NCBI GenBank assembly: GCA_024860865.1
Contig: JACRDV010000081.1
Location: 1 to 13,531, forward strand
Direction of reading: 5' to 3'
Length of the DNA: 13,531 nucleotides
Source of the DNA: JACRDV01 sp024860865 [NCBI: Methanobacteriota archaeon]
GTDB taxonomy: Archaea; JACRDV01
This document shows, in pieces, positions 5,294 through 8,841 of this stretch. Below the pieces are notes generated by a model that saw nothing but the letters and a program-made list of their open reading frames with translations, did no database searches and had not been told where the DNA came from. The position numbers were made by a program, and so were the translations under genes. Numbering within the stretch: position 1 is the stretch's first letter; each line of letters opens with the position of its first letter.

Positions 5294-5776
5294 CTACCAA
5301 GGTTCTTTTTTCAGGCCAAGCTTATATCCAGTAGCATTTACGGTGAAATGTGCCAACGGCGTAAAAACAACAAGTATGAAAAAAGTTGTAAGATATATTG
5401 GAACAATAAGCGAAGCTGCCAATATAGCTCCACAAACAAAGTCAAGCTGATCAAGAAGTGGGGCAAAAGCTCCTCTCGGCAATCCAAATCTCCTTTTTAT
5501 AAAAGCTCCAAAAACAGCGTCTCCAAAAATTGCACCAGCTCCTAAGCTGAGTCCCAATGGCAAATTTCCTTGGAGAGCTCCGATAAAGGCACCCCAGAGC
5601 ATACCTGCCAGTGAACCTTTGAAAGTCACCGATTCACCAAAAATTCTCTTGCCATCAAAGAAATTTTTGCCAAAATCAACTGGCTTACCACCACCGAAGA
5701 TTGCCGCTGACATATTTGCAAAGTAAGCTGGCAAGAAAAACCAAATTGTTTGAGCAAATAATTGTAAATAATCCAT
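5294..5776 (-). CDS. carS: CDP-archaeol synthase
   Basis: This 160-aa integral membrane protein transfers CMP from CTP to unsaturated archaetidic acid (2,3-bis-geranylgeranylglyceryl phosphate), activating it for polar headgroup attachment. Conserved CarS features are PAYFANMSAAIFGGGKPVDFG (16-36), DGKRIFG (41-47), GD at 85-86 with KRR (94-96) and RG (101-102), and the LLDQLDF segment (107-113). These residues line the CTP/Mg site. About five hydrophobic membrane segments can be seen, as expected (one each around 5-25, 55-75, 75-95, 110-128 and 125-145). Length is normal for the family. The ATG at 5776 is preceded by a TATA-like tract 29 nt upstream, making this the first gene of the leftward operon. 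Confidence 0.93.
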   Translation of the reverse strand: MDYLQLFAQTIWFFLPAYFANMSAAIFGGGKPVDFGKNFFDGKRIFGESVTFKGSLAGMLWGAFIGALQGNLPLGLSLGAGAIFGDAVFGAFIKRRFGLPRGAFAPLLDQLDFVCGAILAASLIVPIYLTTFFILVVFTPLAHFTVNATGYKLGLKKEPW

Positions 5777-5868: not shown

Positions 5869-6159
5869 CTAAGCGCGATAGAGTTTGTTTAATAATGCTT
5901 CAGCTTCATCATTAAATCCCTATCGCTGAAAATGTCTAAAGCTAAAGTTTCAACGTAGGGTATTGGCTCTTGGGCTGAAGGAGTTCGCGCTCCTCCAATT
6001 AATATTTCTTTCAATATCAGCGGTAGGCATTTCTTTTTGTATTTTAATAGACATCATATTCGAAAAGCCTTTCACTACTTTGTTCATCTTCAAAAGATCC
6101 AAAAAGGATAAAAAATTTGGGTAATTATGTGCCTCCGAAAATAAAAAGTCAAAAAAGTT
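5869..6159 (-). pseudogene. frameshifted gene remnant, unidentified
   Basis: No single frame is open across this stretch, but protein-like sequence continues through three minus-strand frames. The first, from 6159, reads through DFLFSEAHNYPNF, then LDLLKMNKVVKGF and IQKEMPTADIER. After a shift near 6005 it continues as EILIGGARTPSAQ and EPIPYVETLALDIFSDRD. After a second shift near 5916 it ends GFNDEAEALLNKLYRA and a stop at 5869. The joined product would be about 95 residues and lacks a clear N-terminus, because an in-frame stop precedes it at 6162-6160. I do not recognise the family. It may be a decayed gene, or an intact one broken by sequencing errors. Chance protein-like sequence is less likely but possible. 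Confidence 0.4.
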
Positions 6160-6181
6160 CTAAAATAAAACTCAGACTTAA

Positions 6182-6264
6182 GCAGTGGGTTGAGAAAAGT
6201 TATTTTTTATAACTTTTGGTACAATGAAGTTAGGTCCAGCGAGAACATTGACCCAACCCACTGC
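6182..6264 (-). ncRNA. candidate structured RNA: compact three-way junction
   Basis: Outer stem: GCAGTGGGTTG (6182-6192) pairs perfectly with CAACCCACTGC (6254-6264), 11 bp. Inside are two hairpins. One has a perfect 9-bp stem, AAAAGTTAT (6195-6203) with ATAACTTTT (6209-6217), and a 5-nt loop. The other is GGT-A-CAATG (6218-6226) with CATTG-ACC (6246-6253), 8 bp with one bulge and a 19-nt loop. The helices abut with only two unpaired bases at the junction. On the minus strand a TTAAATAA (6294-6287) is centred 26 nt before the outer stem, the normal archaeal TATA distance, and T-rich runs at 6176-6139 follow the 3' end. This favours a minus-strand transcript of about 83-125 nt. The sequence does not match tRNA, 5S, SRP, RNase P, or box C/D or H/ACA patterns that I know. 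A small mobile element with terminal inverted repeats is the main alternative. Confidence 0.45.
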
Positions 6265-6286
6265 AAAAAAACTTTAGTTAATCTAA

Positions 6287-6294
6287 TTATTTAA
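6287..6294 (-). promoter_or_regulatory. TATA-like element upstream of the candidate RNA
   Basis: The minus strand reads TTAAATAA here, centred about 26 nt before position 6264, the first base of the outer stem. The region is very AT-rich, so a TATA-like match by chance is easy; the spacing is what makes it notable. Confidence 0.35.
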
Positions 6295-6408
6295 GTTTTA
6301 AACAATTTTTCTTATTGGTTTTTAAATTTAAATCTGATTCTCTTATTAATCAAATAATCTAAAAATTTAGAGATTGCTTATACAAAAAACTACTTGAAAA
6401 GAAAAAAT

Positions 6409-7167
6409 TTAAAACATTAACTCAGTTGAATCTTTCCATAAATATTCAAAATACTCCTTTGCAAAGGTAGCGAGGCCTGGTTCATCTGACCAAATCCCAA
6501 GTTTCTCCTGCAGTGAAGCTAATAGCAATAAAATCTCTCTGCTATCAACAATCACCCCGCCGCCAAAAAGAGTTTCCTTGTATCTAACTTTAAGTTTAGG
6601 AAAAGGCTGCATGAACAATTTGATTTTTGGATTTTTTTCTGCAAATATCATTCGAACTTTAATTTCTTTTGTTTGAAAAACTTGAAGGAAAGGCTGGAGC
6701 CGAATTGCTTCAGGCTCCGTTAAACTCGGAACTACAACTAATACCTCATTCTGAGCGCGGCGCAACATTTCTTCTATTTTTGTTAAAACATTTCTAGCTC
6801 CGTGAATTATCCAAACATCTGGTCGCTTTGTCTCAGCTTGTTTTTCAAAAATGGGGTTAAGCTCTTGTAAAACGCTTTCTCCAGCTTGTGTAAGAGATCT
6901 TTCGAGTCTTTCTTGTGCTATTCTAATTGCATCTCCTGGTGGTTTAGCTCTGTATCTAATAGGCCTACCAGAATGAACTTCTAACCAACCTCTGTGTTCA
7001 AGTTTACTTAACACGTCATAAATTCTAGAGTAAGGAACACCGGCAATCTTACTTACATCACCTGCGGTCGAAGCACCAGCATTAACTAAGGCAACGTATA
7101 CCTTAATTTCATACTCCGTAAGACCAAATTGTCTAAGGGATTTTAGGACCTTTTCGCTAATTTCCAT
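6409..7167 (-). CDS. TrmB-family transcriptional regulator
   Basis: This 252-aa protein has an N-terminal TrmB-type winged helix (about residues 8-75), with LTEYEIKVYVALVNAGASTA followed by the recognition-helix region VPYSRIYDVLSKLEHRGWLEV. A helical linker follows (about 78-112). The C-terminal domain starts at WIIHGARNVLTKIEEMLRRA and resembles the phospholipase-D-like effector domain of the family. TrmB proteins in Thermococcales bind sugars and repress or activate transport and central-carbon genes; the ligand here is unknown. The ATG at 7165-7167 follows a purine tract (AAAGGGG). It is divergently transcribed from the tes-like gene, and a 6-8-6 inverted repeat lies 21-40 nt upstream of its start, so autoregulation and control of the neighbour are plausible. 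Confidence 0.88.
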   Translation of the reverse strand: MEISEKVLKSLRQFGLTEYEIKVYVALVNAGASTAGDVSKIAGVPYSRIYDVLSKLEHRGWLEVHSGRPIRYRAKPPGDAIRIAQERLERSLTQAGESVLQELNPIFEKQAETKRPDVWIIHGARNVLTKIEEMLRRAQNEVLVVVPSLTEPEAIRLQPFLQVFQTKEIKVRMIFAEKNPKIKLFMQPFPKLKVRYKETLFGGGVIVDSREILLLLASLQEKLGIWSDEPGLATFAKEYFEYLWKDSTELMF

Positions 7168-7187
7168 GTTTTTACCCCTTTAGGTGG

Positions 7188-7207
7188 TAGATCCAAAATT
7201 TGATCTA
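7188..7207. promoter_or_regulatory. candidate TrmB operator, TAGATC-N8-GATCTA
   Basis: This perfect 6-bp inverted repeat with an 8-nt spacer lies in the regulator/tes-like intergenic region. The known Thermococcales TrmB/TrmBL1 consensus, TATCAC-N8-GTGATA, has the same 6-8-6 architecture with different half-sites. It lies just upstream of the regulator start and about 65 nt upstream of the likely tes TATA box. Binding is inference. Confidence 0.45.
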
Positions 7208-7270
7208 TCTTGTTTCTGTTTGGAATACAAAAACGAAATAACTACTTTTCAGATTATGAAAAGTTTGATA

Positions 7271-7285
7271 ACATATTTATATTTA
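7271..7285 (+). promoter_or_regulatory. candidate TATA box of the tes-like gene
   Basis: ACATATTTATATTTA is the clearest TATA-like tract in the intergenic region. It predicts transcription from about 7303 and a leader of about 36 nt that contains the strong ribosome binding site at 7328-7333. Confidence 0.4.
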
Positions 7286-7327
7286 CTCCTAACAGTGGTA
7301 AATTCTAATTCTGATTTGTTTCTATCT

Positions 7328-7333
7328 GGAGGT
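7328..7333 (+). promoter_or_regulatory. Shine-Dalgarno GGAGGT deciding a GTG start
   Basis: GGAGGT sits 5 nt before the GTG at 7339. It is the strongest ribosome binding site in the window and fixes the start of the tes-like gene, since no ATG is present nearby in frame. Confidence 0.7.
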
Positions 7334-7338
7334 CCCTT

Positions 7339-8841
7339 GTGGTCAAAACTAAAAGCATTTGCCCTGAATGTTTGAAAGCAATCGAAGCTGTGGTTTTTGA
7401 AAGGGATGGAAGGATTCTAATCGAGAAAGAATGCCCGGAACACGGAAAATTCAGTGATACGTACTGGGGAGATGCAAAGCTTTATTATCGGGCGCAAAAA
7501 TTTGCCTGCGATGGAAAAGGCGTTGAAAACCCAGCAACTAACCACGAAAATTGCCCATGGACCTGCGGTCTCTGTAATGGTCATCTCTCTCATTCTGTCC
7601 TCGGAATAATTGATGTGACCAATAGGTGCAACCTAAAATGCGATTTTTGTTTTGCTAATGCTGGTGCTGTTGGATATATTTACGAGCCAAATCAAGAGCA
7701 AATTTGGGAAATGTTATTAGCGCTTCGAAATAATAAACCAGTTCCTTGCCCCAGTGTACAAATGAGTGGCGGCGAGCCTTTAATTCGAAGTGATATCGTT
7801 GAACTAATTAAGCTTGCTAAAAAAGCTGGCTTTCCTCACACACAAATCGCAACCAATGGATTGATGCTTGCCAACAAGCCAGAGTTAGCAAAAGAACTTC
7901 GAGAGGCTGATTTAAACACAGTTTACCTTCAGTTTGACGGAGTGACACCTGAACCTTACCTAAAAGAGCGTGGTCTTAATCTCCTGCCTGAAAAACTTAA
8001 AGTTATTGAAAATTGCAGAAAAGTTGGGCTTGGGATCGTTTTAGTTCCGACTCTTGCAAAGGGTGTCAATGACAGCCAAATTGGAGACATGATTAGATTC
8101 GCAGCAAAAAATGCAGATATCATTCGAGGAGTGAATTTCCAACCAGTTAGTTTTGCTGGTAGAATCGCAAAAGAAGAGCGAGAGCAAAGAAGGATAACAA
8201 TTCCAGATTTAATGAAGCTAGTCGAAGCACAAACCGACGGAGAGATCGCAGCTGAAGACTTCTATCCAATTCCAAGCATAATTCCTTTCTCTGAATTTGT
8301 TTCTGCTTATGAAGCAATACCTCAAGTTGAATTCACTACCCATGTATGCTGCGGCGCTGCTACTTATGTCTTCCTCCATGATGGCCATTTCGTTCCAATA
8401 ACTAGATTCGTTAATGTTGAAGCTTTCTTTAAATTAATGAGCGAACTTGCGGCCGATATAAGAAAGTGGGGAGTTTTAGGTAAAGCCAAGGCCATACTAA
8501 AAGCAACTACTTCTCTTTCAAAAATAGTTGATGAAAAAAATAAGCCGAAGTGGTTTGACTTTAAGGAATTGATCATTAACATACTTGAAAAACGAAATTA
8601 CGATGCACTTGCCGAGTTCCATTATAAGAGTTTATTTATCGGTTGTATGCATTTCCAAGATGCTTACAATTTTGATATTGAGCGGGTGAAGCGCTGTGTA
8701 ATTCACTATGCCGTCCCGGATGGGCGAATCATACCATTCTGTGCTATGAATACGATTTATAGAGAAAAGATTGAAAAGCAATTTAGTAAGCCATTGGTTA
8801 TCTCAACTGTTCCATCCGAAACAGCTGCTGTTCAGAGTTAA
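7339..8841 (+). CDS. tes: tetraether lipid synthase-like radical SAM enzyme (Tes/MJ0619 family)
   Basis: This 500-aa radical SAM enzyme matches the Tes (GDGT/MAS synthase) family, which couples the biphytanyl tails of two archaeol units through carbon-carbon bonds to make tetraether lipids. The N-terminal metal region has CPEC (Cys 8, 11) and CPEHG (Cys 32), a rubredoxin-like site, followed by CPWTCGLC (Cys 72, 76, 79). The radical SAM cluster motif CNLKCDFC uses Cys 97, 101 and 104, and the SAM-binding SGGEP is at 143-147. Further cysteines that could hold auxiliary clusters are 337, 338, 436, 453 and 468. Length fits the family. The GTG start follows GGAGGT. The gene is monocistronic and divergent from a TrmB-family regulator. 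Some relatives are only annotated as generic radical SAM proteins, so the product should be confirmed by phylogeny. Confidence 0.85.
   Translation: MVKTKSICPECLKAIEAVVFERDGRILIEKECPEHGKFSDTYWGDAKLYYRAQKFACDGKGVENPATNHENCPWTCGLCNGHLSHSVLGIIDVTNRCNLKCDFCFANAGAVGYIYEPNQEQIWEMLLALRNNKPVPCPSVQMSGGEPLIRSDIVELIKLAKKAGFPHTQIATNGLMLANKPELAKELREADLNTVYLQFDGVTPEPYLKERGLNLLPEKLKVIENCRKVGLGIVLVPTLAKGVNDSQIGDMIRFAAKNADIIRGVNFQPVSFAGRIAKEEREQRRITIPDLMKLVEAQTDGEIAAEDFYPIPSIIPFSEFVSAYEAIPQVEFTTHVCCGAATYVFLHDGHFVPITRFVNVEAFFKLMSELAADIRKWGVLGKAKAILKATTSLSKIVDEKNKPKWFDFKELIINILEKRNYDALAEFHYKSLFIGCMHFQDAYNFDIERVKRCVIHYAVPDGRIIPFCAMNTIYREKIEKQFSKPLVISTVPSETAAVQS

Follow-up and report, generated by a model that had tools for sequence, protein, structure and literature searches.

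Between the genes for a TrmB-family regulator and the CDP-archaeol synthase CarS lies an 83-bp stretch of dense nested pairing, and the locus raises the question of whether this element encodes a structured RNA, acts as DNA, or is a product of chance or decay. The window (the whole stretch of archaeal DNA that was analysed, 13,531 nt) belongs to a 160-contig assembly (G000) of 92% completeness, and a preliminary description had put forward the element as a possible undescribed archaeal RNA on the minus strand. The element is a real, single-copy, orphan inverted repeat that folds into a three-way junction (Table 1).

Table 1. Positions of the element, its parts and the surrounding features in the window
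Feature	Position	Strand	Basis or remark
Whole three-way-junction element, 83 bp	6182–6264	−	Folds on the plus strand too
Outer 11-bp stem, 5' arm	6254–6264	−	Complementarity and MFE fold
Outer 11-bp stem, 3' arm	6182–6192	−	Complementarity and MFE fold
Inner hairpin 1: 8 bp, bulged base 6221, 19-nt loop	6218–6253	−	MFE fold
Inner hairpin 2: 9 bp, A/T-rich, 5-nt loop	6195–6217	−	MFE fold
Predicted rival hairpin, excludes the three-way junction	6221–6264	− only	6264–6250 pair with 6236–6229 and 6227–6221
BRE/TATA-like TAAAACTTAAATAA	6287–6300	−	Weak; lies 36–23 nt before the outer stem
T-rich tract after the element, possible archaeal U-rich terminator	6138–6181	−	Sequence
Partly coding-like, frame-shifted stretch, possible decayed or orphan small gene	5889–6110	−	Codon use
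Gap of 632 bp between TrmB and CarS	5777–6408		Gene coordinates
TrmB-family regulator	6409–7167	−	Annotation of window proteins
CarS, CDP-archaeol synthase	5294–5776	−	Annotation of window proteins
Tes, tetraether lipid synthase	7339–8841	Divergent from TrmB	NF045702

Structure of the element and strength of its fold

The perfect 11-bp outer inverted repeat of the preliminary description was borne out, with 6182–6192 and 6254–6264 complementary at 11 of 11 positions, and the minus-strand MFE fold reproduces exactly the two enclosed hairpins (one of 9 bp, the other of 8 bp with one bulge) and the two unpaired junction bases (6194–6193) that had been described. In this fold, 6253–6246 pair with 6226–6222 and 6220–6218 to form hairpin 1, 6217–6209 pair with 6203–6195 to form hairpin 2, and all of the base pairs in the element (28/28) are Watson-Crick and intact. 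Predicted pair probabilities for the outer stem are 0.96–1.0 in both an 83-nt and a 125-nt transcript; for a 436-nt transcript, the MFE fold differs from the three-way junction and the outer stem is kept in the centroid. Hairpin 1 is predicted to be gone at 70 °C and hairpin 2 to be gone as well at 80 °C. The G+C content of the element is 0.41, compared to 0.64–0.66 for three short tRNA matches in the same genome (L141, L143, and L145), a value that is not fatal to an RNA reading because the noncoding RNAs (ncRNAs) of Pyrococcus abyssi span 33–66% G+C in the set of PMC3124441.

The fold is strong on both strands, with −29.9 kcal/mol on the minus strand (z −5.73) and −31.0 kcal/mol on the plus strand (z −6.09), none of the shuffles folding as well in either case (0/200 each), and as single-stranded DNA the element has a fold z-score of −6.9. 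Fold z-scores were also computed along both strands for 1074 windows of 110 nt placed in steps of 25, with 25 shuffles per window. The two scan windows that contain the whole element came first and second (z −5.3 on the plus strand, −4.1 on the minus strand), and the third-ranked (z −3.6) overlaps it. By raw energy, the 83-mers starting at 6181, the nearest scanned to the element, rank fourth and fifth in the window, and coding DNA at 5531 and 5556 (near 5531–5640) folds to −30.9, ahead of them. A census of perfect inverted repeats (at least 11 bp, 30–90 bases between the arms) across 161,141 bases, composed of 15 stretches of the same genome and the window, recovered ten, of which the element alone has an MFE of −25 or lower, the next best reaching −20.3.

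Markov simulations (9.67 Mb each, MFE ≤ −29.9) were used to estimate how often comparable elements arise. With the dinucleotide composition of the genome sample there were 0.10 comparable elements per Mb when the span was limited to 83 or less and 1.76 without a span limit, while under the local gap composition the 9.67 Mb held none within the span limit and 0.10 per Mb without it. For the genome composition, the expected numbers are ~0.0014 per 13.5-kb window (0.024 without the span limit) and ~0.16 per genome of such size (2.7 without). The earlier claim that such dense pairing is unlikely by chance agrees with the expectation of 0.0014 for the window and with the first two scan ranks; the element is unusual at its own site, yet within reach of scanning many windows. 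The 1074-window scan makes the element stand out more within the window, but as it bears on both of the readings that rest on structure only, it leaves their relative standing unchanged.

Search for relatives and known classes

It had been suggested that no common RNA class fits the element, and the Rfam check agrees, with 0 matches to the Rfam 15 families in the window at the gathering cut-off and, at E up to 10 within 6050–6420, five matches to microRNA, snoRNA, mycoplasma, and HIV families that were taken as chance. A 131-bp query found only itself in its own genome, the only one matched among 101 genomes. A single-sequence covariance model likewise returned the element alone from its own genome (E up to 10) and from both strands of the window and 21 of the 80 fetched comparison loci (80 kept of 349, chosen by CarS similarity). 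The model gave one match among 28 genomes from the phylum of the Hadesarchaea locus L109 and, with stricter filters, two genomes with matches among 394, namely its own and the same site in G108 (apparently identical to G184) again. This site (C15:12291–12388; 25 bits, E 0.02 for one genome) was rejected as a homologue and taken as chance, having 66% G+C, a longer insert, several broken pairs, and other ORFs around it; neither TrmB nor CarS was seen by eye in the fetched stretch.

Searches with blastn found nothing better than E 0.66 for 220 bp of the gap among the 80 loci and no match to the element among plasmids and phages (E up to 1e-5), and the IMG/VR viral contigs held no exact-pattern match to it; six viral contigs have a 16-mer in common with the element and none of them fits the covariance model at E up to 1. 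The proposed search for relatives in related archaeal genomes thus produced no convincing one among the 394, and with no convincing homologue no compensatory change can be counted. The preliminary proposal is partly supported, in that the structure is real and has no Rfam match, and a functional undescribed RNA is one candidate reading of it. No description of such an element was found in the open literature searched, where one query on Hadarchaeota and noncoding RNA returned only an integron paper.

Several known classes were considered and set aside. A tRNA was rejected on the lack of an ARAGORN or RF00005 match, none of the 22 RF00005 places in the genome being on the contig of the window (0/22 on C26). 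C/D box sRNAs carry a box C (RUGAUGA) and a box D (CUGA), but in 6140–6310 both strands lack a box C, and one CTGA occurs, at 6175–6172 on the minus strand. The hammerhead ribozyme core includes CUGANGA and GAAA; no CTGANGA occurs on either strand, and one GAAA occurs on the plus strand. The attC sites of integrons carry a 5'-terminal RYYYAAC and a 3'-terminal GTTRRRY core motif; in the element the two are internal and in reverse order only, on both strands.

As separate observations on the tRNAs, many of the 22 matches to the tRNA model in the genome (L141–L162) are 84–119 nt long and intron-bearing in appearance, and two (L149 and L154; G+C 0.43 and 0.32) look like false positives. ARAGORN in bacterial mode found none in the 15 stretches, while the tRNA model places two in the C14 and C15 stretches.

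The TrmB–CarS gap and its signals

The 18 window genes listed leave 17 spacings, and the gap that holds the element is longer than any other; the next measures 187 bp. Among the 80 loci kept by CarS similarity, two from Hadesarchaea (L108 and L109) have Tes, TrmB, and CarS arranged as in the window, and there CarS starts a few bases at most from the TrmB stop. The best named match to CarS comes from a Hydrothermarchaeota genome (58% identity), and the relatives among the matches listed in the genome searches all share the domain only, with no close relative among them; gene order and similarity suggest that the lineage is deep and near the Hadarchaeota or Hydrothermarchaeota.

A TATA-like element before the outer stem had been noted previously, and while the sequence TAAAACTTAAATAA is present, it is not significant: among random 60-mers drawn from the local composition, 13% score as high. 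The promoter matrix was trained on the upstream regions of 18 of the 22 tRNA matches and is a poor model because the best positions in the training set scatter; on it TAAAACTTAAATAA scores 6.9 and the plus-strand side of the element 2.7. The T-rich runs reported past the element on the minus strand are present in the sequence, and a simple bacterial-type scan of the gap found no terminator-like site. The promoter-like site and the T-rich tract are no more than compatible with a minus-strand transcript, one in which transcription would start from the weak TATA-like site at 6300–6287 and end in the T-rich tract at 6181–6138.

Behind the element, minus-strand codon use from ~6110 to 5890 appears partly coding-like, with a change of frame partway; the best windows score 0.21 and 0.28. 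Real genes average 0.31, and off-frame scores average −0.29 with a 99th percentile of 0.27. Only the second exceeds the off-frame 99th percentile, narrowly, and a broken small gene is plausible but unproven, as these two are the best of ~100 scored windows. Searched at E up to 1, the pieces matched no family in Pfam, NCBIfam, or PHROGs, and they matched no plasmid or phage; among the matches listed from 297 genomes, 15 others were matched, all at E 0.08 or worse, and among PDB chains nothing was better than E 0.24. The alternative that the element is the leader of the decayed gene that follows is possible: the minus-strand frames 3' of the element are co-oriented with it and partly coding-like, yet broken and without a homologue.

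A second structured stretch occurs at 5880–5999 on the minus strand (z −4.1); it holds two hairpins, one of 13 bp with a bulge and one of 9 bp, and overlaps the possible broken gene. Together with the z-score of the 436-nt transcript (−4.2), it gives rise to the idea that the whole gap might be a single large RNA, against which the intervening 6046–6181, between the element and the second stretch, has no fold excess (z −0.5).

A predicted rival hairpin on the minus strand

Folding of growing pieces of the minus-strand RNA predicts a second structure that is newly found here and absent from the preliminary description, a 15-bp hairpin with one bulge in which nt 1–15 pair with nt 29–44. Its predicted energy is −17.3 kcal/mol for nt 1–44 and −18.0 for nt 1–47, and the 83-mer folds to −23.2 kcal/mol when its last 11 nt are kept unpaired, compared to −29.9 for the whole three-way junction. 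Two mutually exclusive folds are therefore predicted on the minus strand; the plus-strand RNA lacks a comparable rival (−11.6 for the first 72 nt), making the hairpin the single folding asymmetry in favour of the minus strand. Its stability was matched by 11 whole shuffles and by 24 controls in which the 5' arm was kept (n = 2000 each), and by 81 and 85 of 2000 controls in which all of the stems were kept and the loop alone was shuffled. With 0.5–4% of random controls reaching it, this post hoc evidence is suggestive, not decisive.

Were the minus strand transcribed, the nascent RNA would fold first into the 15-bp hairpin of nt 1–44 and, as the last 11 nt emerged, would refold by strand exchange into the three-way junction. 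Such refolding could time or switch an event, either the end of transcription within the U-rich tract or the accessibility of downstream sequence. The strongest form of the proposal would make the element an undescribed archaeal bistable RNA whose three-way junction forms immediately ahead of a U-rich, terminator-like tract and works as a timer or switch during transcription, in a deep lineage near the Hadarchaeota or Hydrothermarchaeota; this is improbable.

Competing explanations for the element

Two explanations stand at about equal probability, each credible and each short of an even chance. One is a structured RNA private to the lineage, with its template in the TrmB–CarS gap read as minus strand, which would be either stand-alone (~85–125 nt) or the 5' leader of a small, now-decayed gene behind the element; the other is a chance or relic inverted repeat without function in a long, A+T-rich, decaying intergenic region, a striking case picked from much sequence that folds well as would any DNA built of nested inverted repeats. 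The strength of the fold (z −5.7, 0/200 shuffles, first and second of 1074 scan windows, ~0.1 elements like it per Mb of simulated sequence under the span limit) argues for the RNA, as does a position in the longest spacing of the window (632 bp, with the others at 187 bp or less) where two Hadesarchaea loci have adjacent genes. The 28 intact pairs, amid a gap whose coding-like remainder is broken, the restriction of the rival hairpin to the minus strand, and the persistence of the outer stem in 83- and 125-nt transcripts point the same way. Against it, the exclusively Watson-Crick pairing and a plus strand that folds at least as well would fit an inverted repeat of DNA no less than an RNA, the coding DNA of the window reaches similar raw energies, the rival hairpin was recognised post hoc, and the 436-nt MFE fold differs from the junction. 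The RNA reading further has to contend with the lack of a convincing homologue and hence of covariation, a promoter-like site that is not significant, low G+C, and hairpins that would be lost at 70 °C and 80 °C. The same absence of a homologue, weak promoter, low G+C, and uniform Watson-Crick pairing favour a non-functional origin, for which 0.16 such elements are expected per genome with the span limit and 2.7 without; against it, the expectation for one window is 0.0014 (0.024 without the limit), local composition produced none in 9.67 Mb with the span limit, the next best of the ten real inverted repeats reaches −20.3, and the element takes the first two of the 1074 ranks.

Characterized archaeal RNAs offer partial parallels for a private RNA. 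The RNAs sRk11, sRk28, and sRk33 of P. abyssi (PMC3124441) resemble the element as small intergenic RNAs with predicted hairpins, but they are expressed and conserved in the Thermococcales with compensatory changes, whereas the element is known from sequence alone and without relatives; the comparison to these three was made via Rfam only. The same paper proposes that some P. abyssi intergenic ncRNAs derive from longer leader transcripts. A 5' leader able to adopt two mutually exclusive folds would work like the archaeal leader riboswitch candidates crcB/fluoride and TPP (named in PMC3124441 and PMC2864571); the element differs in that it has no Rfam match, its possible downstream gene is broken, and no conserved aptamer is definable from one sequence. 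If transcribed, the element would be one more orphan structured RNA, from a deep archaeal lineage, and a candidate for co-transcriptional refolding in archaea; if not, it would be a calibrated example of a dense nested inverted repeat in A+T-rich DNA with no known role.

The remaining explanations are less probable. An element acting at the DNA level, either the remnant of a miniature mobile element or a palindrome that a protein binds in duplex or cruciform form, is rather unlikely, though it would suit the perfect terminal repeats, the Watson-Crick pairing throughout, the equal folding of both strands and the single-stranded DNA z-score of −6.9, as well as the extra DNA between genes that are adjacent in two Hadesarchaea loci. 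Its short length and the perfect inverted repeats at its ends resemble archaeal miniature inverted-repeat transposable elements (MITEs), from which the element departs in its single copy and its lack of a target duplication; no full-length element with such paired ends was found. A MITE would have multiple dispersed copies, and one was found in the genome (covariance model, E up to 10); the multiple copies with target-site duplications that the preliminary description had suggested looking for came down to this one copy, its flanks (ending ...CTTAA and beginning AAAAA...) having AA alone in common, and the mobile-element alternative raised there was rejected as unsupported. Allowing one mismatch at most, ten places in the genome carry the outer repeat (control pattern, five), namely the two arms of the element and eight sites on eight other contigs; no pair of near-identical ends was found on one contig, though the contigs are short and a broken pair could be missed. 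The lack of a plasmid or phage match by blastn and of an exact match in the viral contigs also weighs against a mobile origin. A role as a 3' structure in ending or processing the TrmB transcript, or that of a former TrmB–CarS operon, is unlikely. The element is on the same strand as both genes, 144 nt past the TrmB stop, and the two genes are adjacent in two Hadesarchaea loci, but the intervening 144 nt are 16% G+C and T-rich on the minus strand, such that archaeal termination is probable there, and CarS has, by eye, its own TATA-like sequence just upstream of its start. Least probable by far, a very slim prospect, is a singleton attC site, to which the length and single-strand folding would be suited and for which there is a precedent in the integrons reported in 3–4% of Hadarchaeota and Hydrothermarchaeota genomes (PMC9668308); its core motifs are reversed and internal, it occurs as a single copy, and Pfam identified no integrase in 9 window proteins.

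Observations on the lipid-gene neighbourhood

The TrmB regulator is divergent to Tes in the window, L108, L109, and L114, and lies directly before CarS in L108 and L109, making the protein a candidate regulator of archaeal membrane-lipid genes. Within the open literature searched, no work combining ‘tetraether lipid synthase’ and ‘TrmB’ was found. In the Tes–TrmB spacer of the two Hadesarchaea loci (L108, 1150–1180; L109, 2529–2559), a conserved TTCACCACTYAAAGRGGTGAATATTTAAAAC palindrome adjoins a TATA-like box and is possibly a TrmB operator in the Hadesarchaea; by eye, the palindrome is not in the Tes–TrmB spacer of the window (7168–7338). In L115, from the same genome as L108, Tes carries what appears by eye to be an intein-like insertion past the radical SAM motif, and NCBIfam includes a model for intein-containing Tes.
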